DNA of 47,775 nucleotides from Clostridium sp. CAG:678. GTDB lineage: Bacteria > Bacillota > Clostridia > Oscillospirales > Acutalibacteraceae. The position numbers and the translations under genes were made by a program. The stretch is taken from positions 18,071-65,845 of the forward strand of contig HF991826.1 of assembly GCA_000431535.1 (NCBI GenBank), written 5' to 3'. The stretch's first letter is position 1, and the number at the start of each line of letters is the position of its first letter. Positions 15,633 to 47,775 of this stretch are shown piece by piece. The notes beneath the pieces were generated by a model. The model was not told the origin of the DNA, did no database searches, and saw only the letters and a list, made by a program, of their open reading frames with translations.

Positions 15633-15736
15633 ACTATCGCTCCTTTTCATCATTTTTTCATTTCTGCTGCGAAAGCAGCCGGGGATTCATTTGCAGGGCA
15701 AACCGAACCCCTGTTGATTATAACAGAATAACCAAT

Positions 15737-15764
15737 GAAAGGGAAGCCGAAAAGCTTCCCTTTC
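15737..15764 (-). promoter_or_regulatory. stable stem-loop between binding-protein and ATPase genes
   Basis: A perfect 11-bp stem (GAAAGGGAAGC with GCTTCCCTTTC) and a 6-base loop lie just after the bmpA-type stop. On the minus strand it is followed by ATTGGTTATTCTG, not a T run, so it is a poor terminator. Such stems after the binding-protein gene commonly protect the upstream mRNA from decay or cause partial termination, giving more binding protein than ATPase; that role is inferred. Confidence 0.65.
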
Positions 15765-15779
15765 CTGAATTTTCAGCGA

Positions 15780-17078
15780 TTACGCATTTGCGTTCAGTTC
15801 TGTGATTCCGTCTATTCTGAGCTGGAAGTAAGGAGCGGCTCTGAGAACGGATTCCTCAAAATAAGTAATGTTATTTGCAGATACGATAGCTTCTTTTGTT
15901 TCACCCTGATATACGGCGGTTGCCGTACCGGTTGAATAATCATAATAAGTAAGATCGATCGGAGCGGTCGTTACCTGCGCGCCTTCAACGGTAAACTTGG
16001 AAGTATCGAATACCTGAAGTGTGCCGTTTTTAATGCCTTCGATAGCGGCGTCAACCGCCTCCTGCGTGCCTTCTGCGCAGGAAGAGCCAAGTGGTGTAAT
16101 GCCAACGGCATCCGCCTCATAGCCTTTTGCCCAGTCCTGGGGAACCTCCGTACCGTTCATAACAGCGGTGAAGAGTTCTTCATAGTAAACTTCCCAGTTA
16201 TTGGTAGAGGAAGTAAGCGCAACATCCGGGGCAACATCCGTCATATCCACATTGTAGCCAACGCTGTAAGCAACCGTGCCTTCGTTGTGCGCATCCTGCA
16301 CAGCGGTGGGCGCGCCCGTTGAATCCGCATGCTGGCCGATGATCACGCAGCCGCGAGCCATAAGCGTTTCCGCTGCGGCAGCCTCACCCTCCAGATCAAA
16401 CCAGGAATTGGTGTACTGCACGTCCATAACAACATTGGAAACTACGGATTTAATTCCGAGATAGAAAGCTGTGTAACCGGAAACCACTTCGGCATAGGGA
16501 TAAGCGCCTACATAGCCGACTTTAACATTGCCGTTTGCATCATAATTGTTATCACCGAGCTGATCCGTATCAATCAGTTCCTGAATCTTCATGCCGGCAA
16601 CGATGCCGGACACATATCTTGCCTGATAGATCTTTGTAAATGCATTATAAAGGTTCGGCAGACCCGAGATTGCGGCGTAATCACCCGTCATTGCAACGAA
16701 AGTTACATCCGGGAAATCCTCTGCAGCTTCTGCAATAAAGTCCTGATGGCCGTAGCTGTTGGAAATAACGAGCTGGCAGCCTGAAGCAACAAGTTCCTGC
16801 GCGGCTGTGTAGCACTCTTCGGACTCCGGAATTTTTTCTTTCCAGCTGATGTTTTCAGCAGGGATACCGAGTTTTTCCGCAGCGGCTCTGATACCGTCCG
16901 CATGCGCCTTGGTATAGGTCTCTGTGTCATCGCCGATCTCGATAACGCCGATCTTAAGATCAGTACCTACGCCGGCAGACGCGTCTTCGCCGCCGTCCGT
17001 TCCAGCCGAGCACGCGGCAAAGGAAAAGACAAGCACAACAGCAAGAAGCAGCGCCATGATCTTTTTTGACAATTTCAT
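15780..17078 (-). CDS. BMP-family nucleoside-binding lipoprotein
   Basis: The 432-residue protein is the extracytoplasmic substrate-binding subunit of the nucleoside ABC importer. Its signal peptide ends in a lipobox with Cys23 (FSFAACSAG). The mature part carries BMP (Med/PnrA-like) family pieces: a first strand LKIGVIEIGDDTETYTKAH, the central VKVGYVGAYPYAEVVSGYTAF, and MARGCVIIGQHADSTG, which lines the ligand cleft. An AGGTAG-type box precedes the ATG. It is longer than PnrA (about 350) but similar to clostridial BMP proteins of about 400 residues. The gene lies between xpt and the transporter genes; purine nucleoside or base is the likely ligand. Confidence 0.92.
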   Translation of the reverse strand: MKLSKKIMALLLAVVLVFSFAACSAGTDGGEDASAGVGTDLKIGVIEIGDDTETYTKAHADGIRAAAEKLGIPAENISWKEKIPESEECYTAAQELVASGCQLVISNSYGHQDFIAEAAEDFPDVTFVAMTGDYAAISGLPNLYNAFTKIYQARYVSGIVAGMKIQELIDTDQLGDNNYDANGNVKVGYVGAYPYAEVVSGYTAFYLGIKSVVSNVVMDVQYTNSWFDLEGEAAAAETLMARGCVIIGQHADSTGAPTAVQDAHNEGTVAYSVGYNVDMTDVAPDVALTSSTNNWEVYYEELFTAVMNGTEVPQDWAKGYEADAVGITPLGSSCAEGTQEAVDAAIEGIKNGTLQVFDTSKFTVEGAQVTTAPIDLTYYDYSTGTATAVYQGETKEAIVSANNITYFEESVLRAAPYFQLRIDGITELNANA

Positions 17079-17938: not shown

Positions 17939-19120
17939 ATGGCGGATATTTCAGATTACGCAGTAACATTCGGATCGTTCAGATTCTCTGAAATGGGAAT
18001 CACGGAAGCGGACAATGCCATATTCAGCCGGCTCGCCTATCTGGATCTGACTCCGTTTACGGGAAAGACTCTTGGCGAAACGGCGGAAGAATACGAACCG
18101 GGGGATGAATCCAACAAAACGCTGCACGAAACATACGAACTTTTGAAAAAAGCGGGAAAAACGATACGTTACGGATACATAACGATTGCGGACTGCCGGG
18201 AGATCGTGAGCGACGACATGCAGACGGCTTTTTATGCCGTTACTTTTGCCACGGACAAAAACACTTTTTTTATTGCGTTTCGCGGCACGGACGATAAGAT
18301 CGTCGGTTTCTACGAGGACGCGAAACTGGCGTATGCGTTTCCGGTATCCAGCCAGACTTCGGCACTGAGTTATGTAACGGATCAGCTGGATACGCGCAAG
18401 GGAAGATTTTTCCTGGGCGGGCATTCAAAAGGCGGAAACCTTGCGATCTTTGCGTTTTTATTTCTGCGGGAGGCGCAGAAAGACAGGATCATCCGCGTTT
18501 ACAACAATGACGGGCCGGGATTTCCGCAGGAGATTGCGGATATTTTGTTTACAAAAGCAAACGGCGAAAAGATTTTGAACCTTTTGCCCGAAGATTCCAT
18601 AATCGGCAGAATGCTTTCCGACGGCGGGAAAATAAAAATCGTAAAGAGCACCGCCACCGGCGCCGCGCAGCATAATCTTTTCACTTGGGAAATCAACGGC
18701 GCAGGATTCAAAACGGTAAAACGATTCAGCCAGTTTTCGGAATACATGGAGGATTCGCTGACGCAAAGTTTGGAAACACTGCCGCCCGAGAGAATGCGGG
18801 ACGCTGCTGCGGCAGTATTTGAAATCGCGAAAAACAGCGGTATCAAAACGCTGAAAGACATCAACATAAAGAACTTCAGAAGTCTGCTGCCGGCGGTAGC
18901 GGAACTGAAACAGCTGGTGGATGAGGACACGGATGACATACCCGTGATCGTAAAAACGCTGGCAAAAAGCATGGTGGATGCCCTAAGCGTGGAAAAGATC
19001 GTTGAGCGCTCCATGCCCGAAGTGATGAGCAAAATTGACGAATTTACGGAAAAGATCAGAAATAAAGCCGAAGAGAAGAACGCCTTTCCGGCGGAAGAAC
19101 TGCATAAAGAAAAAAATTAA
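17939..19120 (+). CDS. DUF2974 alpha/beta hydrolase (Mbeg1-like lipase family)
   Basis: The 393-residue cytoplasmic protein carries the nucleophile elbow GHSKGG at 161-166 (Ser163) and the lipase-like oxyanion segment FRGTDD at 114-119, which defines the DUF2974/Mbeg1-like group of class 3 lipase relatives. A likely acid is in YNNDGPGF, and the C-terminal 120 residues are helical and polar. Substrate is unknown; an esterase or lipase acting on an acyl chain is inferred from the fold. The GGTGAG box 5 bases ahead supports the ATG at 17939. It is the only plus-strand gene in the first 38 kb, transcribed alone between a divergent promoter and a bidirectional terminator. Confidence 0.85.
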   Translation: MADISDYAVTFGSFRFSEMGITEADNAIFSRLAYLDLTPFTGKTLGETAEEYEPGDESNKTLHETYELLKKAGKTIRYGYITIADCREIVSDDMQTAFYAVTFATDKNTFFIAFRGTDDKIVGFYEDAKLAYAFPVSSQTSALSYVTDQLDTRKGRFFLGGHSKGGNLAIFAFLFLREAQKDRIIRVYNNDGPGFPQEIADILFTKANGEKILNLLPEDSIIGRMLSDGGKIKIVKSTATGAAQHNLFTWEINGAGFKTVKRFSQFSEYMEDSLTQSLETLPPERMRDAAAAVFEIAKNSGIKTLKDINIKNFRSLLPAVAELKQLVDEDTDDIPVIVKTLAKSMVDALSVEKIVERSMPEVMSKIDEFTEKIRNKAEEKNAFPAEELHKEKN

Positions 19121-35416: not shown

Positions 35417-36448
35417 TCAAAGCAGGGTCTGCTGCCCTTCCTGCTCAATACCGAGATGTTTATACGCTGCAGAGGAAACACATCTGCCGCGCGGCGTTCT
35501 GCTCAAAAAGCCGATCTGCATCAGATACGGCTCATACACATCCTCGATGGTAACCGCCTCTTCGCCGATGGCGGCGGCGATCGTTTCCAGCCCTACGGGG
35601 CCGCCGTTATAATTTTTGATCATCGTTGTTAAAAGTCGCCTGTCTACTGCATCCAGACCAAGGTCGTCTACTTCCATTCTGGAAAGCGCGTCGCTTGCGG
35701 CCTCTTCGGTGATCACGCCGTTGTATTTGACCTGTGCAAAATCACGGCTCCTTTTTAAAAGCCTGTTTGCGATACGCGGTGTGCCGCGCGAGCGCGAGGC
35801 GATCATGGCGGCGCCTTGATCATCTATCTCTATGCCGAGAATACCGGCGCTGCGCTTGACGATAACGGAAAGTTCCTGCGGCGTATAAAGCTCCAGGCGG
35901 AAGATCACGCCGAATCTGTCCCTAAGCGGCGCGGAAAGCTGACCTGCTCTTGTGGTTGCGCCCACAAGGGTGAAATTCGGAAGATCCAGCCGGATTGACC
36001 TGGCGGACGGGCCTTTGCCGATGATGATATCAAGGGCTCTGTCCTCCATAGCGGGGTAGAGCACCTCTTCCACGCTACGGTTCAGGCGGTGTATCTCATC
36101 AATAAAGAGCACATCGCCCTCCTGCAGATTCGTCAGCAGTGCGGCAAGATCGCCCTGCTTTTCGATTGCCGGACCGCTTGTGATGCGAATATTGACACCC
36201 ATCTCATTGGCAATGATTCCGGCAAGCGTAGTTTTGCCGAGGCCGGGAGGGCCATAGAGCAAAACATGATCAAGCGCCTCTCCCCTTGCCTTTGCCGCTT
36301 TAATATAAACCGATAAATTCTCTTTTACTTTATCCTGCCCGATATAATCCGTTAACTGCTTGGGGCGAAGGCTGTTTTCCAGATCTCCGTCAGCAGGCGA
36401 AAACTCCGTTGACACGATTCTGTTTTCGTAATCCGTTTCCTGCATCAT
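35417..36448 (-). CDS. ruvB: Holliday junction branch migration helicase RuvB
   Basis: The 343-residue AAA+ motor has Walker [10 protein letters not shown], Walker B FIDEIHRL, the RuvB-specific [12 protein letters not shown] opening and the sensor piece LVGATTRAG. The C-terminal winged helix ends with [11 protein letters not shown]. It drives branch migration with RuvA. The gene follows ruvA with a 12-base gap. Confidence 0.97.
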
Positions 36449-36460
36449 TTCAACCTCTTA

Positions 36461-37066
36461 TCATAGATTTTTTGACAACTGCCTTAAGCCCTGCCGGATC
36501 ATCTCATCGGCGGGAAGTGAACTGTCCATCGCGCCGACTGCAGCGGCGGCATCACTTTTGCTGAACCCGAGCGCAACCAGCGCGGCGACCGCCTCCCCTG
36601 CCGGGGAATCCTCCGCAACAGACGCGGCGGCGGAAACGGAACTTTCGGAAGACGAAAGCGTAACGCCTGCCATTTTATCTTTCAGTTCCAGCACGATCCT
36701 TTCGGCTATCTTTTTACCGACGCCGTTTGCTCTTGTTATGGCTTTCGTATCACCGGCGGCAACTGCGAGCGACAGTTTATCCGCGCTCATTTCCGAAAGG
36801 ATGGACACCGCCGCTTTCGGGCCGACCCCGGAAACGGAGATCAGCAGTTTGAACGCACGCAGTTCATTTTCTGTTTTAAACCCATAAAGATCCAGCGCGT
36901 CTTCCTTTACGGAAAGATAAGTATAAAGGCGGATCTGATCGCCGATCCTGCCGGCGTTTGCTGCCGTGGCAACCGAGGTAAAACATTTGAACCCTACGCC
37001 GCCGCATTCCACAACCAGAAACTGATCGCCGATATAAGTTAATTCACCTGTAAGACTGTATATCAT
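36461..37066 (-). CDS. ruvA: Holliday junction branch migration protein RuvA
   Basis: The 201-residue protein opens with MIYSLTGELTYIGDQFLVVE, the OB-fold of RuvA. Helix-hairpin-helix motifs follow (LLISVSGVGPKAAVSIL and ITRANGVGKKIAERIVLEL), then a flexible Ala/Ser-rich linker and a C-terminal domain III (AVAALVALGFSKSDAAAAV) that binds RuvB. Confidence 0.97.
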   Translation of the reverse strand: MIYSLTGELTYIGDQFLVVECGGVGFKCFTSVATAANAGRIGDQIRLYTYLSVKEDALDLYGFKTENELRAFKLLISVSGVGPKAAVSILSEMSADKLSLAVAAGDTKAITRANGVGKKIAERIVLELKDKMAGVTLSSSESSVSAAASVAEDSPAGEAVAALVALGFSKSDAAAAVGAMDSSLPADEMIRQGLRQLSKNL

Positions 37067-37097
37067 AAAACATTCCTCTTAATAAAGCAATTGCGTA

Positions 37098-37598
37098 TCA
37101 CAAACCGGACGCCATGGAACCGAGCAGGCTGCCGCTGCAGTGCGCGTGGCAGATCGCCATAGCAAGCGCGTCGGCAGTGTCGTCAGGTTTCGGGATCGAT
37201 TCCAGATTCAGGATGATCCTTGTCATCTCCTGCACCTGTTTTTTGACCGCTCTGCCGTAGCCGGTTACGGACTGTTTTACCTGAAGCGGCGTATATTCCG
37301 CGATCTGAAGCCCGTTCTGCTGCGCGGCAAGCGTGATCACGCCCCTTGCCTGCGCCACATCAATCACCGTTTTTGCATTGTTGTTATAAAAAAGCTTTTC
37401 CATGCTTAAAACCTGAGGCTCATACTTTTTTATGATTTCGCAAATGCCGCTGTAGATATCGCATAATCTAAACGGAAACGGCGTTTTGGCGCTGGTTGTA
37501 ACCGCGCCGTAATCGATCACTTTAAATTTGTTTGCCCTGTATTCCAGAACGCCCCAGCCGATGATTGCGTAGCCGGGATCTATGCCTAAAATTACCAT
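37098..37598 (-). CDS. ruvC: Holliday junction resolvase RuvC
   Basis: The 166-residue nuclease resolves Holliday junctions as a dimer. It has the RNase H-like fold with acidic residues in MVILGIDPGYAIIGWG (Asp7), SMEKLFY (Glu), and the C-terminal KPDDTADALAMAICH. It heads the ruvCAB unit behind a clear promoter; the order ruvC-ruvA-ruvB is standard. Confidence 0.97.
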   Translation of the reverse strand: MVILGIDPGYAIIGWGVLEYRANKFKVIDYGAVTTSAKTPFPFRLCDIYSGICEIIKKYEPQVLSMEKLFYNNNAKTVIDVAQARGVITLAAQQNGLQIAEYTPLQVKQSVTGYGRAVKKQVQEMTRIILNLESIPKPDDTADALAMAICHAHCSGSLLGSMASGL

Positions 37599-37628
37599 AG
37601 TACATACTGCTCCATAATAATTTAAACA

Positions 37629-37657
37629 ATTATATCATATTGCATTTTGTTTATCAA
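37629..37657 (-). promoter_or_regulatory. predicted sigma-A promoter of the ruvCAB-glmM-ecf unit
   Basis: Minus strand TTGATA (37657-37652), 17-base spacer, TATAAT (37634-37629), 31 bases before the ruvC ATG. No SOS-type LexA box of the CGAACRNRYGTTYG kind was seen. Confidence 0.72.
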
Positions 37658-37698
37658 TAAAAATAATATTAAACTTATGTCTAAAATATTTTGGGGTC

Positions 37699-37731
37699 AA
37701 AAACAAATACGGCTGAATCAACATTCAGCCG
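37699..37731 (-). terminator. terminator after the flavodoxin-fold gene
   Basis: Perfect 9-bp stem CGGCTGAAT with ATTCAGCCG and a 4-base loop, then TATTTGTTTTTG on the minus strand, 8 bases after the stop. Confidence 0.8.
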
Positions 37732-37738
37732 CAGCAGA

Positions 37739-38308
37739 TCACAAAAGCGGATTTTTGGAAAGCCCCTTTAACTGGTGTATAAATTTTTGCAGTTCCACAA
37801 CGTTAAACGTATACATGCCGAGATCCGTATTCGGAATAAAATATCTGGCGCACACGTCGCCGTTGAGAACCTCAAACGCCTGTTTGAGCGTTTTGGTCAT
37901 ATAATCGGCGCTGGAACGCGCGTTTGAGCCTGAAACGATCACAACGCCCACCTTTTTATGCTTTTTTACAGGCGGATTGGCGCCGCGCTTGAATCTGGCG
38001 CTGTAATAACGCTGAAACCGGTCTATCACTGCCTTGAGGGGCGCAGGAAAAAAGTTATTGTAAACGGGTGTAAAGAAGGCGATAAAATCCGCCTCCTCAA
38101 AATCCTCAAAAAAGATATCCAGATCTTTATTTGAACACCCGTCATGATATTCGCAATACTTGCAGTCCGTGCACGGGGCAGGCGCAAGATCATAAACATT
38201 ATATTCCCGGATATCACAGTCCAGAAAATACGGTTTCACCTGCTTTGCAAGTTCAGAAGAGACGCCGTCCTTTCTGGGGGAACCGTTTATAATTAAAAAA
38301 GTCTTCAT
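37739..38308 (-). CDS. flavodoxin-fold NAD(P)H-dependent FMN reductase family protein
   Basis: The 189-residue protein opens with the FMN-phosphate site INGSPRKDGVSSELAK. It has a Cys cluster (CTDCKYCEYHDGC) at about 48-60 and the FMN-binding stretch FFTPVYNNFFPAPLKAVIDRFQRYY, as in the iron-sulfur flavoprotein and FMN reductase group of clostridia. The Cys cluster is shaped like CxxCxxCxxxxxC, so an iron-sulfur centre is plausible; electron partner and substrate are unknown. It is transcribed alone from an extended -10 promoter. Confidence 0.87.
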   Translation of the reverse strand: MKTFLIINGSPRKDGVSSELAKQVKPYFLDCDIREYNVYDLAPAPCTDCKYCEYHDGCSNKDLDIFFEDFEEADFIAFFTPVYNNFFPAPLKAVIDRFQRYYSARFKRGANPPVKKHKKVGVVIVSGSNARSSADYMTKTLKQAFEVLNGDVCARYFIPNTDLGMYTFNVVELQKFIHQLKGLSKNPLL

Positions 38309-38323
38309 TTCATCACCGTTTTT

Positions 38324-38352
38324 ATTATAGCACTTTTACCTATTGAGTTAAA
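38324..38352 (-). promoter_or_regulatory. predicted promoter of the flavodoxin-fold gene
   Basis: Minus strand TTTAAC (38352-38347), 17-base spacer ending in TGC, TATAAT (38329-38324), giving an extended -10 about 16 bases before the ATG. Confidence 0.65.
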
Positions 38353-38435
38353 TAGTGAAATGTGGTATAAATTAAATAATATACATAATTTGGATAAATC
38401 ATTATCTTTATTCTGTTTGATTGCTGGTGAAAAGT

Positions 38436-39602
38436 ATGAGCAAACTTTTGATTCGGATCTTTATCAAAAACAAACGTCTTTCCGCTTCGCAGGAAAGGGA
38501 GCGGTACGGTGTTCTTTCCGGCGCAGTGGGGATCCTTTGCAACCTGCTGCTGTGCGCCTTTAAATTTGCGGTTGGCGCGTTTACAAATTCCGTTTCCATA
38601 ACGGCGGACGCGGTAAACAACCTCTCAGACGCAAGTTCCAATATCGTTACGATCGCCGGGGCAAAACTCTCCGGCAAGCCGGTAGATGATGAACATCCGT
38701 TCGGCCACGGAAGAATCGAATATATCAGCGGTCTGATTATTTCTTTTCTGATCTTTCTGATGAGTTTTGAACTGCTGAAAAGCAGTGTGGAAAAGTTGAT
38801 CCACCCGGAGGAAGTTCACTTCAGCGCCGCATCCATGATCATCCTGATTGCGGCGATCCTTGTAAAACTCTGGATGGCGTTTTTCAACAACGTGATCTAT
38901 AAAGAAACGGAAAACGTAAATGCAAAAGCAGTAAGGCAGGACAGTTTGAATGACTGTATCGCTACCGCAGCTACCGTTGCGGCGCTCTTGATCTCGCACT
39001 TTACCGATTTCGTCTACGCGGATGGAATCATGGGAATCATTGTGGCGATCCTGATCTTCGTTTCCGGCGTTGGCATTGTAAAAGACATATCCAGCCGGCT
39101 GCTCGGCAGGGCGCCCTCCCCGGAACTGGTTAAAGAAATTGAGGATATCATGCTTTCTCAGGACTGCATTTACGGCGTGCACGATTTGATCGTACACGAT
39201 TACGGCCCCGGCCGGATCATTGCCTCCGCGCACGCGGAAGTGCCCTGCGATGCAGATATACTTGCCGTGCACGACGTGATTGATATTACGGAAAAGATCA
39301 TTAGTAAAAAACTTGGCATCATGATGTGCATCCACATGGATCCCATCGCCGTGAATGACGAAACGATCAACGCATACCGTGATTTCATGGCAGAAATCAT
39401 AAAAGAATACGATGCGCGTTTTACATTTCACGATTTCAGAGTGGTTGACGGACGGCAAAAAACGAATTTCATCTTTGATCTTGTCATTCCGCACCAGTAC
39501 CCCAAGCCAAAGCAGGAGATCATTGCAGATTTGCAAAATGCCGTAAACAAAAAGAAAGACAATATTTTTCTTGTTATAACCGTGGAACACAGCTTTGTGT
39601 AA
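38436..39602 (+). CDS. cation diffusion facilitator family transporter
   Basis: The 388-residue membrane exporter of divalent metals opens with a cytoplasmic stretch and six hydrophobic helices. Metal-site motifs in helix 2 (ITADAVNNLSDASSN) and helix 5 (DSLNDCIATAATV), plus the CDF hallmark HPFGHGRIEYI, are present. The C-terminal cytoplasmic domain (about 220-388) is longer than usual and His/Asp-rich (VHDLIVHDYGPGR, HAEVPCDAD, HVDVIDI-like HDVIDITEK), with an extra segment after the normal end. Zn, Fe or Mn cannot be distinguished. The ATG at 38436 has GGTGAAAAG ahead; an in-frame TTG lies five codons upstream. Confidence 0.92.
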   Translation: MSKLLIRIFIKNKRLSASQERERYGVLSGAVGILCNLLLCAFKFAVGAFTNSVSITADAVNNLSDASSNIVTIAGAKLSGKPVDDEHPFGHGRIEYISGLIISFLIFLMSFELLKSSVEKLIHPEEVHFSAASMIILIAAILVKLWMAFFNNVIYKETENVNAKAVRQDSLNDCIATAATVAALLISHFTDFVYADGIMGIIVAILIFVSGVGIVKDISSRLLGRAPSPELVKEIEDIMLSQDCIYGVHDLIVHDYGPGRIIASAHAEVPCDADILAVHDVIDITEKIISKKLGIMMCIHMDPIAVNDETINAYRDFMAEIIKEYDARFTFHDFRVVDGRQKTNFIFDLVIPHQYPKPKQEIIADLQNAVNKKKDNIFLVITVEHSFV

Positions 39603-39619
39603 CAACCTGCAGCAAAATC

Positions 39620-39655
39620 AGCGCCCACCTGAATATCAGGCGGGCGTTATTTTTT
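39620..39655 (+). terminator. rho-independent terminator after the cation exporter
   Basis: An 11-bp stem with one A-C mismatch (CGCCCACCTGA with TCAGGCGGGCG, 39622-39646) is followed by TTATTTTTT on the plus strand, 18 bases after the stop. Confidence 0.85.
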
Positions 39656-39742
39656 ACTACGGCTGGCAAAACCGTTTATTGCGTTTCAAAAAAAAGAGAA
39701 TACATGTATTTTACGAAAACCGTCAATCCGAATACGGTTTGA

Positions 39743-39956
39743 TCACCAAATACCGTAAAAATACTTTTTGATGTTACCGGCATCAGGATAATGCAACCGG
39801 TCAATCCGCTCTATCACAAGGCTGGCGTCGTAGTGCACATCTACCGTCTTCACTTCAACATTTTCAGGCTTTATGCTTACCACACCCGCCCGCGCAATAT
39901 TTCTGCTTTGCGCGGGGGAGGTTGCTGTGTATATTCGTTATAATGCCGATTTTCAT
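39743..39956 (-). pseudogene. metallophosphoesterase remnant with internal deletion and frameshift
   Basis: The ATG at 39956 has an AGGTG box 5 bases ahead and reads MKIGIITNIHSNLPRA, the start of a calcineurin-like phosphoesterase, in which the first metal motif is normally DIHSN or DIHGN (here Asp is Asn). This frame stops after 31 codons. In the next frame the sequence continues as GVVSIKPENVEVKTVDV and VIERIDRLHYPDAGNIKK, ending at a TGA at 39743-39745; this looks like the normal C-terminal end of the same family. Roughly 150 or more middle codons are missing. It fills most of the 438-base gap between the cation exporter and the OmpA-like lipoprotein gene. A small intact unrelated gene is less likely, since neither frame alone is plausible. 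Confidence 0.6.
39889..39916. repeat. 9-bp perfect inverted repeat at the deletion point of the remnant
   Basis: CCCGCGCAA and TTGCGCGGG are separated by 10 bases. The repeat lies exactly where the two halves of the metallophosphoesterase frame meet. It could be a replication-slippage scar or a leftover transcript hairpin. Confidence 0.6.
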
Positions 39957-39995
39957 GATTTCACCTGCAAAAATAAACACAAAATATCTGTTTTC

Positions 39996-40023
39996 ATAAT
40001 AACACAAAGTGAAATTCTTTCAA
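39996..40023 (-). promoter_or_regulatory. possible promoter kept in front of the metallophosphoesterase remnant
   Basis: Minus strand TTGAAA (40023-40018), 16-base spacer, TATTAT (40001-39996), about 40 bases before the remnant ATG. Confidence 0.35.
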
Positions 40024-40040
40024 AGCCATTTTAATAAAAA

Positions 40041-41558
40041 TTAATTATCAATATTGACTATAAATCTGAAAGATACCCTGCGGCTGGGTTCTATATCTAC
40101 ATTTCCGTCTGCATCATACACGGGCCTGCTTTGCGAATATCCGACCGTTTCCAAAGTAGGAGCGAGTTTAGAAGTGTCAACACCCGTTTCGCCGGACAGG
40201 CAGTAATTCTTTACGTTTTCCGCTCTTTTCTCTGACAGCGGCATGCCGCCCTCATATGTAGTTCCGGAGACCGGGGCAATGTGCCCTTCCACCATAGTTT
40301 TGGCTATAAAGCCGTCATATTTTTCATTATAGATTATGGAAGTGTATGCCTTTAAAAATTTATTTAAGAACTCCTTGCCCTCACTGGTAAGTTCCGCTGA
40401 ATCTCCGCCGAAAAGGACAGTCGCATCCATTGCAATCTCACCTGTTGCGCGGTTGATCTGAACAGAAATCCCGTTTGCCTTGAACTCGTTATAGAGATCA
40501 TCATAAAGATCCGCTTTTTTCTCAGCGATTTCTTTCATTGTTTCTTCATCGATTGCATCCGTATCAATCCCTTCGGACTTCATAACCCTTGCTTCTCTCT
40601 GCGTAATATCATCCGTATAATCATAGATCTTATCGCCGTCAAAAAGCATAATACCAAACGAGTTTAAATACGGGTAACCGGTACACTGCGTGATATAAGC
40701 ATACTGTTGAATCACATTTTGTTCATTACCTTCTGCATCTGTATAAGAGAGATAAACCGTACATCTGCCGTCATCAGACAGTTTAAAAGCGGAATTCTGA
40801 TAATAACTTCCGTCTCTGGAAACCGCATAGTTTATAACGGAATCCTGCTGAGACGCAAAATAATCCAGTTCGTCGATCAGCGGCGTCTTTTCGGTGGAAT
40901 AGCCATGCATGGTGGTTTCGCTTTTATTATTATCTGTGAAAGAATATGCTGTTAATTCCAGCGTATCCGTCCCGTCTGTAAGCGTAAGATAGGGTCCGCA
41001 CAGTGAAAACTCATATTCAAAAATAACATCATCGAGATCGTAGGAAAAGTCATCAGCCGACGAGCTTGTTTCCGTAAGCACGGTATATTTCACTTTGTTT
41101 CCGTTTACTTCATAAGTGCATGGAACCGTACCTGTTTCATCGCCAACAATAAAACTCAGTGCAGCGACTTCCCTGTCTGTTACCTGTTTGAAGTTAGCCT
41201 CAATATCGGGCAAAAACTTTGCGCCGGAATATACGGCAACCGGTAATGAAGAAGTATTAAAAGTCCCGTTATCAAACGCAATATCTTTAAAATTCAATTC
41301 TTTCTTGGTTTTATTCAGATCTTTCTCCAGATTGTTTACGGCATAAACGCCGTGAAGCATATTCGCATCAAACTGAACTGCGGAGAAGATCTGATTCGGG
41401 TCTATAGAATCCTGAACGTCTGTGAATATCGTTTCAGGATCTGTTTCATTATGGTTAAAGTACCAAACTTTTGTATCGCCCTCCCGAACGCTTTTGCTGC
41501 AAGCGGCAAAAGCGAACACAATGGTAAAGATCATCAAAACCGATACGATTTTTTTCAT
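40041..41558 (-). CDS. lipoprotein with C-terminal OmpA/MotB-like peptidoglycan-binding domain
   Basis: The 505-residue product has a lipoprotein signal peptide ending at Cys20 (FAFAACSKS). The middle (about 30-360) is a unique, Asp/Thr/Ser-rich beta-type region with no domain I recognise. The last 135 residues or so form an OmpA-like domain: ATVLFGGDSAELTSEGKEFLN, the helix motif LSEKRAENVKNYCL, ETVGYSQSRP and the closing SRRVSFRF, which bind diaminopimelate in related proteins. Such domains are usual in Gram-negative envelopes and in MotB, and less usual on a Gram-positive lipoprotein. It is the last gene of the cluster with the 1229-residue kinase, 52 bases downstream of it, so it may be the cell-wall end of that pathway. 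No flagellar genes are near. Confidence 0.82.
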   Translation of the reverse strand: MKKIVSVLMIFTIVFAFAACSKSVREGDTKVWYFNHNETDPETIFTDVQDSIDPNQIFSAVQFDANMLHGVYAVNNLEKDLNKTKKELNFKDIAFDNGTFNTSSLPVAVYSGAKFLPDIEANFKQVTDREVAALSFIVGDETGTVPCTYEVNGNKVKYTVLTETSSSADDFSYDLDDVIFEYEFSLCGPYLTLTDGTDTLELTAYSFTDNNKSETTMHGYSTEKTPLIDELDYFASQQDSVINYAVSRDGSYYQNSAFKLSDDGRCTVYLSYTDAEGNEQNVIQQYAYITQCTGYPYLNSFGIMLFDGDKIYDYTDDITQREARVMKSEGIDTDAIDEETMKEIAEKKADLYDDLYNEFKANGISVQINRATGEIAMDATVLFGGDSAELTSEGKEFLNKFLKAYTSIIYNEKYDGFIAKTMVEGHIAPVSGTTYEGGMPLSEKRAENVKNYCLSGETGVDTSKLAPTLETVGYSQSRPVYDADGNVDIEPSRRVSFRFIVNIDN

Positions 41559-41610
41559 AATACTAAAACTCCTTATGTATAGTTATTTCTCAATCGAAAT
41601 GATCACAAAT

Positions 41611-44600
41611 TCATCTGAATAAGTTTTTCAAAATACCGTGTTTCTGCGGCAGTTTGCGTATATTCTCCAGATCTTTTAGCAATTCCCCGGCAGACTGATA
41701 CCGTTGATTCGGGTCAATGCGGGTGCATTTTTCTATAATGTATTCCATGCCTTTGGGGATGCTTGGATTCAATGCACGTATAGGCTTCATGCCATTGAAA
41801 TTCGGATTTCTGGGGTCATCTCCGGTAAGCAGAAAATACATGGTTACACCAAGCCCGAAAATATCCGTTCTGGGGTCTGACTGCGCTGTTCCGTACTGTT
41901 CGGGCGCCGCGTAGCCCCTGGTGCCAAGCGCAACGGTATCCTTCATTTTGCCGGGCTTGTACGTGCGCATAATACCGAAGTCAATGATTTTAATATAGCC
42001 GCTTGGCTGTAAAATAATATTTGCGGGTTTCATATCGCGATATATATACGGTGGGTTTAGAGAATGAAGATACTGCAAAAATCCACAAAGCTGTTTTGAC
42101 CAGTTTACTACCTGTCCAACAGACTGAGCACCACGATTTTCGACTATAGTTTCAAGCGTTTCGCCTTCAAAAAACTCTTGAACAACTGCAAGATATTCAG
42201 CATTTTCAATTACATCGATTATTTTTGGAATTACCGGATGATTTAATTCCTTTATCATATTTGCATCATGAATCAATATATCTCTATTAGAGAATGAGCT
42301 TTCATTTTTATTTAGGCAAATTTTTACTGCACAAGTTCTATTTATCGGCTTAGCGATAGCAAAGAACAATTTATAAAATCCTGAATCACCGATTTGCCTT
42401 ACCAATTCATATTTTTCGCCGATAACAGTGCCTAACGGAACTGATTCTTGAAAATCTGAACTGTCAAAACATTCGGTATTTGGTATTGTTGTTTCATAAA
42501 AGTCCGATTTATAAAATATGTAATTTTTAATTCCGGCAAAGTTGATAATATCGTCTTCTGTAAGTTGATATTTTTTATTGTGCTCCAGTTTTTTATTATT
42601 TAGCCATGTACCGTTAGTCGAGTCTTTGTCCATTATGAACCACTTATTGATTTCATAATAAAACGATGCATGAATCCGAGAAATACCGCTATTATCAAGA
42701 AAAAGATCGCAGTCTGGATTTCTCCCCACATCTAACCTGGTTTTTCTTATTTCAATATTTTGATTCGCGTCCGGATCAAATAGTTTTATTATGTCTTCGT
42801 ACAACATACCGGTTCTGCCAACAGGCAAGCATACATATTCCGCATCCAAATCATATTGCGGTTTGCACTTTACTTCTATTCCTGCTGGCTTGTCCAATTG
42901 CCACCACTCTTTTTTACAAAAGTTTTTAATAAAAATACATAATTTATCGAATGCCTTAAAATTAGGACCATAGCATTTGAAACATACACCGTTTTTAAAA
43001 ATACATGTGAAAGAATTATCAATAAAAAATCCACAAGCACCCATTTCATAATTTTCTAATATTTGTTTTTCAGTTCTCCAAGATCTGAAGTCTATTTTTT
43101 TGATATAATCTCTAATATCACCCTGCTGCTTATCTGTTAAATTAACGATTTTATCATCAAAGAAGCCAACCGAACAAGTAGTATGCGGAACATCTCTTGG
43201 ATTAATTCTGTTGCAATAAATCAGTTTTTTCCCATCGAAACTTATATTAATATTAGGACAACTTCCAAAAGATAACGAAAAATCAGTTATATCTTTCGTT
43301 TTCATAATTGAATCATTCCATATATATGGTGATATATTTGTCACTTCAACATTACAACTTGTACAATAATCAGCATACAACGTATGCTTTAATGTTTTAC
43401 GATTACAATTTGGACATATATCAACAGACAAAACTATCCCACACTTAGAGCAAAACTTGTTTCTTATACTTACAAGCGATCTGCATTTTGGACAAAACAA
43501 CTTGCTATTAATAGGTTCATATTCAATTCTGCCGCATTTTTGGCACACATATTTTTTTGAATAATCCGCATGCCGCTCTAGCCGCTCTATCCATTTGAAA
43601 TCATGCTGGTCATTTTCGCAATCCAGAAACGGATCCACGTCTTGACCTCCGATACTGCGTATCATTAAAGTTGCAAGGGTGTTCATACCGTCCGCATTTG
43701 GATGCGAGCCGTCAATCGAATCATACGGTACGCTATAACTAAATAAATCAATAAGTTTACAATTTTGCTGGTTTGCAACCGTTTCTATGATCTGATTATA
43801 TTTGTTTATATAGTTTCCATTATATTTATACGGAAAATAAAAAGACGGATCAGATGACATAAATGTTGCACATAAAGTGCAGCACCAGATCTCAGCATTC
43901 GGATAATTGGATCGGATCTTGCGGATCATGTTGCCGTATGCAGAGACGAAAATATCGTTATATTCATGCCCAAGGAGCGTACATCCATCAAATTCTATGG
44001 GAACGCCGTTTGCCCAATCGTTTGTGCCAAGATAGACGATAATCACATCCGGCACAACATTGCTGATATGCAAGTTTCCGGTTCGCTCATCCGAGCAGCC
44101 GGACGGAAACAGAGAATCACTGCCCGGCAGTTGTGTTACTCTGCTGCCGGACCAGGAATTATTCACAAGCAGTTCACCGCCGAAGAAATCAATAACTTTC
44201 CCCCACCAAGTGTCTTTCATTTCCCGAACACCGGATCGGAAACAGTTTTCGCCGAAATAAAACAGGTTATATCCAAGCGGATTATACCCGTCCAGCGTAC
44301 TGATCGAATCTCCCAAAACAGAAAACTGCTTGCTGAAATACGGATTATGCGTTTTCCATTCCAGATACGGATTAAATTCCTTCCCGCCTTTCAAAATTCT
44401 GCCGGACGGCATGGCGATTGCACCAAATGCCTGTTCCAAAGAATACGGATCAGAAAACCGCCTTTTATTTCCTTCGGCAGAAAGGCCGTAAAATTTCTCT
44501 TCAAAAGCCGTAATATTGGGGCACGCCATATACGGATCATCTCCGACCGTACTTTTGATTGCAAAAACGATCCTTTTGAATTTGGTATGATAAGCATTTT

Positions 44601-45300
44601 CTTCAACGACTTCGTGGAATGCTTTTGCAACGATTTCCGGCGGATTTTTAAACGCGCCGCATCCGAAAGCGCCGAGAACAAGCACTTCTGCACCGTTATC
44701 TACAGCCGCCTCGAAAGTGTTCTTGATTCGGCTTTTGAACAGTTCTTTCAGTGCCGCTTGATTCGTATATTTACGTCTCGCAATGTACGGCGCGGAACAG
44801 GTGATCACGTCTACCTGAAACCACTCGTTTTCCGGCATCAGCTGAGGAACATCGCTATCATCCTTGAAAACCGTTACGCCTTTGGTATAGATCAGCCTGT
44901 CCGAATAAAAAAAGCTGCGCAGATTTCTGTGGTAAAGATAGAATTCGTTGAACACACTTTTATCACAAAGGCAGTGATAAAGATTGCTGCTGCGGCAAAG
45001 GCACTCTTCCTGCGCCATAGCGCCGTTTTGCACACCGCCGCCCGGATTTTCCGGATTTGCAAAATTCAGCACGGCAACCCTGCCAAACTTGCAAAAGCCT
45101 TTCGCCGTTGCAAAAGTCGTACCAGATACGACTTCAACCTTGGTACTTTCAAAACACGGACTTACGGTATTTGATGTAAAACCCTCTTTGTAAACCCGGC
45201 TGGAACGTATAGCGCCTTCAGTTGCAGCAAGCAATTTTTCACTATAGGCAATATTCAGTGTGTCTTTAAACGAAAGTATAAGATCATTTTTATCAGGCAT
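41611..45300 (-). CDS. multidomain protein: PARG-like + SGNH hydrolase + zinc ribbons + FHA + Ser/Thr kinase
   Basis: This 1229-residue single frame joins several domains. Residues 1-270: microbial PARG-like domain (TIGR02452 type) with the signature GGG (87-89) plus QEE (97-99) and the phosphate loop GAFGCGAFKNPP. Residues 320-555: SGNH/GDSL hydrolase with Ser332 (GDSIS), GTND (425-428) and Asp530/His533. Residues 586-649: five CxxC pairs of zinc ribbons. Residues about 660-840: unrecognised, Cys-rich. Residues 850-930: FHA with Gly859-Arg860, Ser874-Arg875, His877 and Asn896-Gly897. Residues 962-1212: protein kinase with Lys993, Glu1018, YRDMKPAN (Asp1089), DFG (1107-1109) and APE (1132-1134); its Gly loop is diverged. 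All catalytic residues for kinase, SGNH and PARG are present. No signal peptide or membrane segment is seen, so it is cytoplasmic. AGGTGAT lies 5 bases before the ATG. The role is inferred only: removal of ADP-ribose and an ester group under phospho-control. Confidence 0.9.
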   Translation of the reverse strand: MPDKNDLILSFKDTLNIAYSEKLLAATEGAIRSSRVYKEGFTSNTVSPCFESTKVEVVSGTTFATAKGFCKFGRVAVLNFANPENPGGGVQNGAMAQEECLCRSSNLYHCLCDKSVFNEFYLYHRNLRSFFYSDRLIYTKGVTVFKDDSDVPQLMPENEWFQVDVITCSAPYIARRKYTNQAALKELFKSRIKNTFEAAVDNGAEVLVLGAFGCGAFKNPPEIVAKAFHEVVEENAYHTKFKRIVFAIKSTVGDDPYMACPNITAFEEKFYGLSAEGNKRRFSDPYSLEQAFGAIAMPSGRILKGGKEFNPYLEWKTHNPYFSKQFSVLGDSISTLDGYNPLGYNLFYFGENCFRSGVREMKDTWWGKVIDFFGGELLVNNSWSGSRVTQLPGSDSLFPSGCSDERTGNLHISNVVPDVIIVYLGTNDWANGVPIEFDGCTLLGHEYNDIFVSAYGNMIRKIRSNYPNAEIWCCTLCATFMSSDPSFYFPYKYNGNYINKYNQIIETVANQQNCKLIDLFSYSVPYDSIDGSHPNADGMNTLATLMIRSIGGQDVDPFLDCENDQHDFKWIERLERHADYSKKYVCQKCGRIEYEPINSKLFCPKCRSLVSIRNKFCSKCGIVLSVDICPNCNRKTLKHTLYADYCTSCNVEVTNISPYIWNDSIMKTKDITDFSLSFGSCPNINISFDGKKLIYCNRINPRDVPHTTCSVGFFDDKIVNLTDKQQGDIRDYIKKIDFRSWRTEKQILENYEMGACGFFIDNSFTCIFKNGVCFKCYGPNFKAFDKLCIFIKNFCKKEWWQLDKPAGIEVKCKPQYDLDAEYVCLPVGRTGMLYEDIIKLFDPDANQNIEIRKTRLDVGRNPDCDLFLDNSGISRIHASFYYEINKWFIMDKDSTNGTWLNNKKLEHNKKYQLTEDDIINFAGIKNYIFYKSDFYETTIPNTECFDSSDFQESVPLGTVIGEKYELVRQIGDSGFYKLFFAIAKPINRTCAVKICLNKNESSFSNRDILIHDANMIKELNHPVIPKIIDVIENAEYLAVVQEFFEGETLETIVENRGAQSVGQVVNWSKQLCGFLQYLHSLNPPYIYRDMKPANIILQPSGYIKIIDFGIMRTYKPGKMKDTVALGTRGYAAPEQYGTAQSDPRTDIFGLGVTMYFLLTGDDPRNPNFNGMKPIRALNPSIPKGMEYIIEKCTRIDPNQRYQSAGELLKDLENIRKLPQKHGILKNLFR

Positions 45301-45355
45301 AATTTATCACCTATGTCAAAACCAAATAACATATGTTAATATATAAATAAATTAC

Positions 45356-45380
45356 AGGCAGTTCCAAAACGAAACTGCCT
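45356..45380 (-). terminator. weak terminator or attenuator between the TPR gene and the kinase gene
   Basis: Stem AGGCAGTT with AACTGCCT (8 bp) and a 9-base loop, followed on the minus strand by GTAATTTATTTATATA, which is A+T-rich but not a pure T run. It lies 12 bases after the TPR-gene stop and may reduce, rather than stop, transcription into the kinase gene. Confidence 0.5.
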
Positions 45381-45392
45381 AGATTTTATTTA

Positions 45393-46457
45393 TTAGTGTT
45401 TTATCTTTTCGCTGTTGTCATTAATTTTATTAAACAAATCTTTTATACTTTTTATAATTGGTTCATAAACTTCTGGAAACCCTGTCTTATAGACCTGTTT
45501 CATGCACCAATTGCCACCTTTTTCTATGAGTTTTGCATTTTCTGGACTTGGACAACCATCGCATAAGTGGTAGATATTAAATATCTGAATATATATTGCT
45601 GTAGCAAATTGCAAACCGCCTGTATTTCTGAACTTTTGAATAATTGCATTTGCTACCTGTGCTGACTTTTCATACTCTTTCTTTGAATAAAGTAATAATG
45701 CAAGCCCCACCGCAGCATCTTTATCTTTATAATCATTAATCAATCTTATAAAGACTTCGTTCATGCCCTCTTTATCATTTAACAAGTGATAATAATTAAA
45801 CTTTTTCTTTAAGGTATAGTTTGGAATATTTTCAATAAAGTGTTCATCAGAATTGAGCAACTCTATCATTTCTCTTGGCATTAATTTCTGTTCACTGCAA
45901 AGGATGCAATCAATTAGGTAATTTTCATTATCCTTAAAATTGTTTTGAATAGATTCTAAATAAAACTGCGCTTCATCATAATTCTCTTTATTAAATTCAA
46001 TTAAAAAATGAATATGATATCCGTTGTAACGCTTCGGATATTGCTTAATCATTTCTTTAGCAAGTTTGTCGGCTCTCAAGTATTTTACATGCCGTATACA
46101 ATAAAGTGCTAAAGAGGTTTTAGACAATAATATTTCATAATCATTTTCTGCTGCATCTAATGCCTTAGAATAATATTTTTCTGCTTCTTCGGTATTATCG
46201 TTAATATCAGAAGCAGCAGCCAAAATATTAAACATCGATACATTCTTATAACCCAATTGATCTGCTTTAGCAAAAAACAAACCCGCTGTTTCGGTATCAT
46301 GTAAAGCCGCTGAACATTTGCCCAAATCGAATGCAATTCTTCCATCTTTAGGATATTTTTCTGCAAGCGACTGTAATATACTAGCGGACTCCTTTATATT
46401 TCCTTCGAAAATCAATTTTTCAGCTTTTTCAATAGAATTAGTTTCATTACTATTCAT
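45393..46457 (-). CDS. tetratricopeptide repeat protein
   Basis: The 354-residue protein is almost wholly helical, with about seven TPR-like hairpins (for example AEKYPKDGRIAFDLGKCSAALHD region and TEEAEKYYSKALDAAENDYEIL region). No signal peptide or membrane segment is present. TPR proteins act as scaffolds for partner proteins; here a partner is probably the effector-like protein just upstream or the kinase just downstream. Base composition is distinctly A+T-rich, like the gene before it. GAGAGGT precedes the ATG. No enzymatic motif can be seen. Confidence 0.82.
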   Translation of the reverse strand: MNSNETNSIEKAEKLIFEGNIKESASILQSLAEKYPKDGRIAFDLGKCSAALHDTETAGLFFAKADQLGYKNVSMFNILAAASDINDNTEEAEKYYSKALDAAENDYEILLSKTSLALYCIRHVKYLRADKLAKEMIKQYPKRYNGYHIHFLIEFNKENYDEAQFYLESIQNNFKDNENYLIDCILCSEQKLMPREMIELLNSDEHFIENIPNYTLKKKFNYYHLLNDKEGMNEVFIRLINDYKDKDAAVGLALLLYSKKEYEKSAQVANAIIQKFRNTGGLQFATAIYIQIFNIYHLCDGCPSPENAKLIEKGGNWCMKQVYKTGFPEVYEPIIKSIKDLFNKINDNSEKIKH

Positions 46458-46478
46458 AATTACCTCTCATCCAAAATA

Positions 46479-47612
46479 TCATTTTATCGCATCTTCAATA
46501 TTTCCGATAATCATATCCACACCATCATTGACAGTATCTACTCCTGACTGTATTTGATCATAAAATGGTATAGCTTTTTCTGTTATTTCCTTGTAGAAGC
46601 CATCTGTTTCACCATCGGTTACAAATTCATAAATGGGTGTTAGATAATTAATAGATTGTTTTATATTTTTCCATCCTTTTGATAATGTATTGATGTAATC
46701 GTCTGATTTGTCAACAATTTTAAAACCAAGATCACCATCAAATATTTTTGGACCCGAACCTGTAACAAATTTATCAAGACCGTTAGCAAAATTAATTATA
46801 TCTGCTCCAGTATCGACTACATCTGCTGCTGTCGCGAGAGTATCCCAGCCCAAATCTTCAAAAACATCAGAAAGGCCTTTATTGTCTGCTGATTTCTCAG
46901 CTTCGTCAAGAAAATTGCGTTTTTGCGATAGCTTGTCGCTTAAGCTCTCGCCTTTTAAATCCGCAATATCGCCATAAATAGCATATCCACCCAAGTTTAT
47001 AGCCGTTTCAAGGCTTGACCCAAACTGACATAATCCATTGATTATATCAATCGCACCTGTAGGATTTCCAGACATAATACGCCCAATTCCTCCGGCCATT
47101 TTGCCCAAACCTTTTAAAAAGTTTTTGCCCGCGTCTTTTAAAGCTTCTTTAGCTGCCCAATCCATTTCAGCAGTATAGGTTTCGGCAATTTGCTTATCGA
47201 TATTTTTTAATTTATCATTATAAGGAGCCATAGCAGCCATTATTTCTTGTGATGAAGCAATTTGAAAATTCGGATTAATCATGCTTATTAGCTTTTGTAA
47301 TTTTTCGTTATATGTTAATTCTTTTTCATTGACCTCATCAAAGTTCTTCTTGAAAGTACTATCTACCGAATAAACATTTTCAAAAATTTTTCTCAGTTCT
47401 TTCTTACTCATATCGGTTTTATCTAATATTGCTTTTTGATAGGATTCAACATTAGACATGTCGTCTCTTAAATTTAGAATTCCTAACCACTTACCTGCAC
47501 TTGTAAAGAAATCTCCAAGTCCATCCGTAAGCCAACACCAAGTCTCATTGTTAACTTCATCAATTTGTTTTAATAAACGTTCTTTCGTTTCTTCAGTATA
47601 ATCCCTAACCAT
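46479..47612 (-). CDS. hypothetical protein with helical N-terminus and Gly/Ala-rich centre (effector-like architecture)
   Basis: I do not recognise the family of this 377-residue protein. Residues 1-140 are helical and polar with a WCWLTDGLGDFF segment near 26-38. Residues 145-215 are rich in Gly, Ala and hydrophobics (NFLKGLGKMAGGIGRIMSGNP, GAIDIINGLCQFGSSLETAIN), which resembles the pre-toxin linker of LXG/WXG-type secreted proteins or a pore-like amphipathic stretch. The rest is Asp-rich and helical. There is no signal peptide. A type VII-like or other non-classical export, or a cytoplasmic role, cannot be told apart. GAGGAA lies ahead of the ATG; 21 bases separate it from the TPR gene and 23 from the upstream partial gene, so they form one unit. 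Confidence 0.7.
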   Translation of the reverse strand: MVRDYTEETKERLLKQIDEVNNETWCWLTDGLGDFFTSAGKWLGILNLRDDMSNVESYQKAILDKTDMSKKELRKIFENVYSVDSTFKKNFDEVNEKELTYNEKLQKLISMINPNFQIASSQEIMAAMAPYNDKLKNIDKQIAETYTAEMDWAAKEALKDAGKNFLKGLGKMAGGIGRIMSGNPTGAIDIINGLCQFGSSLETAINLGGYAIYGDIADLKGESLSDKLSQKRNFLDEAEKSADNKGLSDVFEDLGWDTLATAADVVDTGADIINFANGLDKFVTGSGPKIFDGDLGFKIVDKSDDYINTLSKGWKNIKQSINYLTPIYEFVTDGETDGFYKEITEKAIPFYDQIQSGVDTVNDGVDMIIGNIEDAIK

Positions 47613-47635
47613 ATCAATTCCTCATTTCTGTAAAA

Positions 47636-47775
47636 TTACCAGCTGTTTCCGCCGCCACCGCCTAAACCACCGGAACTACTGCTATTAGCAGAACTTATAT
47701 TTCCTTTTGAAGTACCTGAAATATTAGCAGCTGATGACTTATCCAAAGTAATAATGGTTTCGCTGTCTTTCCCTA
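47636..47775 (-). CDS. C-terminal part of a protein with a Gly/Ser-rich, Trp-ending tail (cut by window edge)
   Basis: The frame entering the right edge ends at TAA 47636-47638. The visible 45 residues are polar (GKDSETIITLDKSSAANISG) and close with a Ser/Gly tail, GGLGGGGGNSW. Such tails are common at the end of TPM-domain, SHOCT or some secreted or membrane proteins, but no domain can be named from this piece. It is the most upstream visible gene of the accessory unit. Confidence 0.75.
   Translation of the reverse strand, partial: GKDSETIITLDKSSAANISGTSKGNISSANSSSSGGLGGGGGNSW

Follow-up and report, generated by a model that had tools for sequence, protein, structure and literature searches.

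Bacterial-type PARGs (DUF2263/TIGR02452; DRB0099, SCO0909, 3sig) form an established family, two members of which, DRB0099 and SCO0909, are described by Lu et al. 2025 (PMC11833690) as protecting Escherichia coli from the ADP-ribosyltransferase (ART) toxin RhsP2. Enzymatic reversal of ADP-ribosylation has likewise been proposed as a means of immunity for the Imm-ARG/ADP-ribosylhydrolase immunity proteins, whose different ADP-ribosylhydrolase domain is associated with ART toxins (as set out in PMC3482391). Control of an export machine by a kinase and an FHA protein is discussed by Garrett et al. 2024 (PMC11217815) for the threonine phosphorylation pathway of the type VI secretion system (T6SS), and the same paper describes the T7SSe subtype of the type VII secretion system (T7SS). 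Herein, we analyse a 47,775-nucleotide stretch of Clostridium sp. CAG:678 (contig HF991826.1, positions 18,071 to 65,845; "the window" below means this whole stretch), in which a single gene of a T7SSe-like locus encodes a PARG, an SGNH hydrolase, zinc ribbons, an FHA domain and a Ser/Thr kinase domain. We propose, with a probability of roughly 0.45, that its product works in the cytosol as an accessory enzyme to a Ser/Thr phosphorylation module of the T7SSe-like kind, with hydrolysis as its output and the reversal of toxin ADP-ribosylation as its probable benefit.

The gene and the domains of its product lie as follows:

41611..45300, minus strand: PARG - SGNH - zinc ribbons - unnamed domain - FHA - Ser/Thr kinase protein (Pfam and NCBIfam), a single ATG-to-stop frame of 1,229 residues
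44548..45234, minus strand: PARG domain, residues 23-251 (TIGR02452, 6e-61, NCBIfam; GGG-x7-QEE)
43684..44316, minus strand: SGNH hydrolase domain, residues 329-539 (Lipase_GDSL_2 PF13472, 1.2e-15; Ser332, Asp530, His533)
43354..43545, minus strand: zinc ribbons, residues 586-649 (five CxxC pairs)
42871..43335, minus strand: unnamed domain, residues ~656-810, also found in loci L006 and L069
42538..42729, minus strand: FHA domain, residues 858-921 (PF00498, 1.1e-19)
41695..42411, minus strand: Ser/Thr kinase domain, residues 964-1202 (Pkinase PF00069, 3.9e-38), a paralogue of the locus kinase by its place in the kinase tree

Pfam and NCBIfam thus bear out the claim of the first-pass annotation, made from the DNA letters without searches, that one open frame joins five kinds of domain; its domain list holds for the named domains, but missed the unnamed one. 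The zinc ribbon match is marginal (DZR, residues 603-650, 3.8e-6; its 27.4 bits barely clear the cut-off, 27.3), with CxxC pairs of the zinc region at 586, 603, 617, 629 and 646 and others outside it at 474 and 773. The unnamed domain is 38 and 51% identical to its counterparts in two relatives; it had no Pfam match listed at E up to 0.1, and a three-sequence profile of it found no PDB relative (best E 0.59).

Set beside the described systems, the window locus shares with T7SSe the kinase, PP2C, DUF6382-FHA protein, Ig-like protein, YukD, FHA-ATPase and WXG100 gene, all of which stand together here with TseH and TseK unassigned, while its MinD-like ATPase may be comparable with TsfV of T7SSf. 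Relative to the T6SS threonine phosphorylation pathway it is a different machine, and we know of no hydrolase heads in that pathway. Unlike the PARGs of the bacterial-type family, that of the window is one of six domains and is linked to phosphorylation genes; unlike in Imm-ARG, the enzyme is fused to an esterase and a kinase. In the text of the T7SSe paper (PMC11217815), the terms "hydrolase", "glycohydrolase", "esterase" and "macro domain" do not occur, and "ADP-ribos" appears only in a reference. Each named domain is known; for the PARG-SGNH-kinase architecture, its tie to T7SSe-type phosphosignalling and the repeated pairing of PARG with SGNH, our search of open-licence full-text literature returned no description, and one may exist elsewhere. 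The first-pass remark that no described protein joins all five domains is thus not contradicted in that literature.

Both hydrolase heads of the window protein retain their catalytic residues. The PARG part belongs to the bacterial-type family, as it matches both TIGR02452 and PF10021 (PARG_cat_microb, residues 23-147, 1.2e-34, Pfam), carries the GGG-x7-QEE signature at residues 87-99, and aligns with solved PARGs at about 1e-30 (5zde, 1.7e-30; 3sig, 6.4e-30; also the 5zda-g and 3sig-j series); QEE is kept in 37/37 PARG domains aligned from the fetched loci. In the SGNH part, the Ser, Gly/Asn, Asn and Asp-x-x-His blocks are all present (S332 in GDS, NNSWSGS at 380, GTND at 425, DGSHP at 530), and the best solved sequence match is 4m8k, an uncharacterised GDSL protein (4.9e-13). 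Among the 28 SGNH domains aligned from these loci, Ser is kept in 28, Asp in 25 and His in 27, with that of G575 deviating at the Asn and His columns. The residues singled out at first pass (E99, S332 and D1089) do fall at the motif positions. Across the seven fusions that include a kinase (21 pairs), mean pairwise identity is 56% for PARG, 59% for SGNH and 44% for the kinase, the kinase being less alike than either hydrolase in 21/21 pairs. Because the hydrolase heads are the better conserved parts throughout, hydrolysis is the likely output, with the kinase part docking or switching the protein, as we infer from these comparisons.

The kinase tree connects the protein with the genes around it. 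Of 28 kinase domains, 22 of locus and fusion types separate from six that we label PrkC-like (our own term; support 100/100), and 11 fusion-type kinase domains, including those of SGNH-kinase and TPR-kinase proteins and a separate kinase of G397, make up one clade (95/99); a G352 kinase near a lone PARG groups among the locus kinases, outside that clade. The fused kinase is therefore a paralogue of the locus kinase. The fusion gene itself sits at the far end of a T7SSe-like minus-strand gene run that extends beyond the window and continues with small helical genes, a WXG100 gene (3.7e-10), a 1,487-residue FtsK/EssC-type ATPase with FHA, YukD, a MinD-like ATPase, a protein with FHA and DUF6382, a 1,849-residue Ig-like protein, a kinase and PP2C; a second FHA protein of the locus matches DUF6382 at a score short of the cut-off. 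The locus of the window protein and the descent of its kinase tie it to a Ser/Thr phosphorylation module that has a kinase, a PP2C phosphatase and FHA proteins of its own.

This linkage recurs beyond the window. Counting the window protein, we identified 11 distinct proteins in which the same SGNH type comes after PARG (handles G and L denote genomes and loci): window (G000), G364 (=L005), G628 (=L006), L007, G343, G416, G585, G397, G308, G328 (=L008) and G265 (=L009), of which those of G416 and G397 were found solely via the kinase search. The architecture is thus not unique. Seven of these proteins (window, G364, G628, L007, G343, G416, G585) carry the kinase on the same polypeptide, and four (window, G628, L007, G343) have FHA. 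In G397, whose PARG-SGNH frame lacks the PARG start, the kinase is the next gene, with a 4-base overlap. SGNH is joined to FHA or kinase without PARG in G418, G575 and G658, and in L006, L007 and L069 an SseB-like domain separates FHA from the kinase; neither the PARG tree nor the SGNH tree decides whether the fusion had a single origin. The window genome has one PF10021 match in total. Fusions occur in 6/394 genomes of the order sample (E up to 1e-10), in 5/300 of the family sample and in 1/391 of the class sample, the last being the window genome (both E up to 1e-40); these samples overlap. Two short patterns searched in viral contigs gave no confirmed relative, and no match in phage (20 records) or plasmid (28 records) sequences covers >80% of the query.

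DUF6382 is present in 5/6 fusion genomes against 37/394 overall (Fisher 3e-5) and, by genus, in 4/4 fusion genera against 22/168 (2e-4), with p values made optimistic by the related genomes that these counts include. A PARG or SGNH relative lies within 20 kb of DUF6382 in five of the ten genomes holding both, where 0.32 would be expected by chance. G364 and G308 also have the full T7SSe gene set (assigned by similarity, except that Pfam was used for PP2C and a family search for WXG100), and in G343, assembled in two contigs, the kinase, PP2C, FHA and Ig-like genes stand beside the fusion. As 32 of the 37 DUF6382 genomes lack a PARG-SGNH fusion, the protein is not a core T7SSe component. Beside the fusion gene of G416, a protein with TPR, zinc ribbon and kinase is encoded (L070:12706-15276), its DFG motif reading DFT.

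We thus favour the following sequence of events. The protein would act in the cytosol, being probably soluble, since its highest 19-residue Kyte-Doolittle mean over 1,229 residues is only 1.23. The kinase-like domain and, where present, the FHA domain, zinc ribbons and unnamed domain would dock or switch it on the phosphorylation module; the FHA domain has the GR...SRxH...NG residue set (GR at 859 to NGTWLN at 896) of a predicted phosphothreonine reader. The PARG head would then remove ADP-ribose and the SGNH head would hydrolyse an ester, either on that substrate or on one linked to it, for which an acyl-ADP-ribose ester is our guess. The most likely benefit would be the undoing of ADP-ribosylation by toxins, be they the cell's own or those of neighbours. 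We favour such reversal because of the PARG and ADP-ribosylglycohydrolase immunity precedents and because ADP-ribose-related genes lie near relatives of the fusion. Of this model, the analysis shows the domains, the retained catalytic residues, the gene linkage and the descent of the kinase, whereas solubility, docking, substrate and protection are inferred. The toxin-immunity role suggested at first pass has, to this extent, a published precedent in bacterial-type PARG (PMC11833690). A more elaborate version, which we deem rather unlikely, would have the Ig-rich surface protein and the kinase sense contact or attack, with phosphothreonine then recruiting the fusion via its FHA and kinase-like domains so that PARG and SGNH strip ADP-ribose and ester adducts from the damaged target; Ser/Thr phosphosignalling and de-ADP-ribosylation would then be coupled within a single chain.

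Several findings weigh against the proposal of a module-bound accessory enzyme. The window kinase keeps Lys, the catalytic Asp, Asn and DFG (K993, YRD with D1089, DFG D1107, APE at 1132), as the first-pass annotation had seen for three of these, but whether it is active is less certain, as its glycine loop is degenerate (IGDSGFYKL) and the alpha-C glutamate column holds Asp. The G585 kinase lacks Lys, the glycine loop and the DFG glycine, and 3/11 fusions (G308, G328, G265) lack a kinase both within the chain and in the adjoining gene that follows; the earlier idea of the kinase itself as the gate is consequently unsupported. Nor is an essential role for FHA supported: it is unmatched in 7/11 fusions and hence optional. 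In genomes with any PARG or SGNH relative, DUF6382 is in only slight excess (10/62 vs 37/394, p 0.047). A secretion-type ATPase (~1,500 residues) occurs in 3/10 fusion genomes searched (G000, G364, G308), and G343 has neither such an ATPase nor a WXG100 match over cut-off. No ART was matched among the locus neighbours tested, the rest of the genome not having been searched for one; and a structure model of residues 1-560, built from five sequences, was too poor to use (predicted local distance difference test score 45.5).

The ATPase counts bear on the kind of module concerned. Over the ten fusion genomes searched, WXG100 matches over cut-off are limited to G000, G364, G308 and G397, and ATPase absence is weak evidence in G397 (370 contigs) and G416 (85% complete), both of which are fragmentary. 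Among four other genomes with locus-type kinases, a T7SS-sized ATPase (1,533-1,667 residues) is found in G298, G422 and G423 and not in G419. With only 3/10 fusion genomes holding the secretion-type ATPase, the fusion is linked to phosphorylation genes more than to secretion, and the view of it as a strict secretion-system part is weakened by those that lack the ATPase. It is highly improbable that the protein is itself a secreted T7SS effector: WXG100 and helical candidate substrates are encoded nearby, but Pfam and NCBIfam matched neither a WXG nor an LXG domain in the PARG-SGNH protein, whose PARG module begins almost at the N-terminus and whose last domain is the kinase, and relatives persist where the ATPase is missing.

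The immediate neighbours of the fusion gene are these:

40041..41558, minus strand: lipoprotein-like protein (lipobox by eye) with an OmpA-type C-terminal domain (PF00691, 1.2e-7), 52 bp downstream of the fusion gene
45355..45381, minus strand: terminator-like hairpin between the TPR and fusion genes (12-pair stem, T-rich tail; consensus match only)
45393..46457, minus strand: TPR protein, upstream (TPR_19, 1e-7)
46479..47612, minus strand: 377-residue protein between the WXG100 gene and the TPR gene

The OmpA-type lipoprotein gene also follows the fusion in G364 (2e-285) and G416 (5e-104). Between G000 and G364, the genes that separate this pair from the ATPase differ while the pair itself stays, an arrangement that would suit a regulator: ADP-ribosylation, or an acyl-ADP-ribose metabolite, would then be an internal signal for the secretion or envelope module and the protein its kinase-wired eraser, with no part in immunity. 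In G265 and G397, macro domain genes lie no more than two genes away from the fusion, in line with such signalling, and as some macrodomains deacetylate O-acetyl-ADP-ribose, an esterase partner would be sensible. We nonetheless hold this reading to be unlikely on balance, as no ART or sirtuin partner was identified (no genome-wide search for one was made) and the rarity of the fusion in the order sample would be odd for a core regulator.

The varying genes beside a constant fusion also bear on whether its task is immunity against a single toxin cassette that the locus carries. Mbeg1-like lipase genes adjoin the fusion in G364 and G308, and G332 has one in the vicinity of a lone PARG; a lipoprotein-like gene (lipobox by eye) accompanies every one of them. 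PMC11217815 counts such "reverse" lipases among the toxins of T7SS, and an ADP-ribosylglycohydrolase immunity protein is known from PMC3482391. However, the effector-like genes change while the fusion stays, a PARG is not obviously able to neutralise a lipase, and no lipase was matched between ATPase and fusion at the window locus, where not every small gene was tested, all of which makes a cassette-specific role improbable. Elsewhere in the window (17939-19120, plus strand), ~22 kb from the fusion gene, there is an Mbeg1-like lipase (PF11187, 1.3e-57) of the same Pfam family as those adjoining fusion genes in other genomes. The 377-residue protein, for which Pfam gave nothing at E up to 0.1 and NCBIfam one hit below cut-off, is a possible secreted substrate of the export system.

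A role in anti-phage defence appears quite improbable, even though the OmpA-type lipoprotein matches PADLOC ZorB models (best 2.4e-36) and the fused kinase those of the MAD6 and PD-T4-6 defence kinases. The former match falls in the C-terminal part (residues 336-502), rests on an OmpA/MotB-type domain common to many envelope proteins, reaches 46.8 bits against a cut-off of 400 for NCBIfam ZorB2, and has no ZorA gene beside it among the neighbours read; we read it as a probable shared envelope domain. The latter rests on a kinase domain common to those families: for the fusion protein, PADLOC gave kinase models only, among the matches listed (25 of 33 families), and no full system. Defence-like neighbours do occur near other fusions, as L006 has two DUF3990 genes, which we take to be ART-like, a TIR gene and a Rhs-repeat gene (14930-16363, 6696-7064, 1154-2197; the DUF3990 genes at 2.5 kb and more), and at L007:14002-15650, 2.2 kb from the fusion, a DarT-like gene (3.6e-11) precedes a NADAR-DarT1 gene (1.4e-87); these neighbours, though, vary from locus to locus.

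PARG also takes part in other fusions. An 844-residue protein of G007 (L057:5593-8127) joins PARG, ADP_ribosyl_GH and NADAR, all three being families connected with ADP-ribose, L056 encodes a PARG-ADP_ribosyl_GH fusion, and L052:5245-6576 (G201) a DUF1810-PARG fusion of 443 residues. At L059:1627-3183 (G375), an FHA-ADP_ribosyl_GH fusion lies by an interrupted SGNH frame on a contig that also has a secretion-type ATPase. We considered a general exchange of PARG for ADP_ribosyl_GH and set it aside: relatives occur in 32/394 genomes, but as the only FHA-including match is that of G375 and its SGNH frame is interrupted, this is a single case and no pattern. Around the window gene, Rfam gave no match in 36000-47775, promoter-like sites were not enriched (26 vs 28.4 in shuffles), and a frame just past the window (L002:3344-3598) contains a run of unknown residues from masked or unresolved bases.

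Ultimately, if our proposal of a module-bound accessory hydrolase is true, a single bacterial protein would join the signalling chemistries of Ser/Thr phosphorylation and ADP-ribosylation, and there would be a role for the repeated occurrence of PARG together with one subfamily of SGNH esterases. The analysis points to an accessory component of a secretion or envelope module of Clostridia that has been little studied, and hints at the signal-guided undoing of a chemical mark by a large protein of these bacteria.

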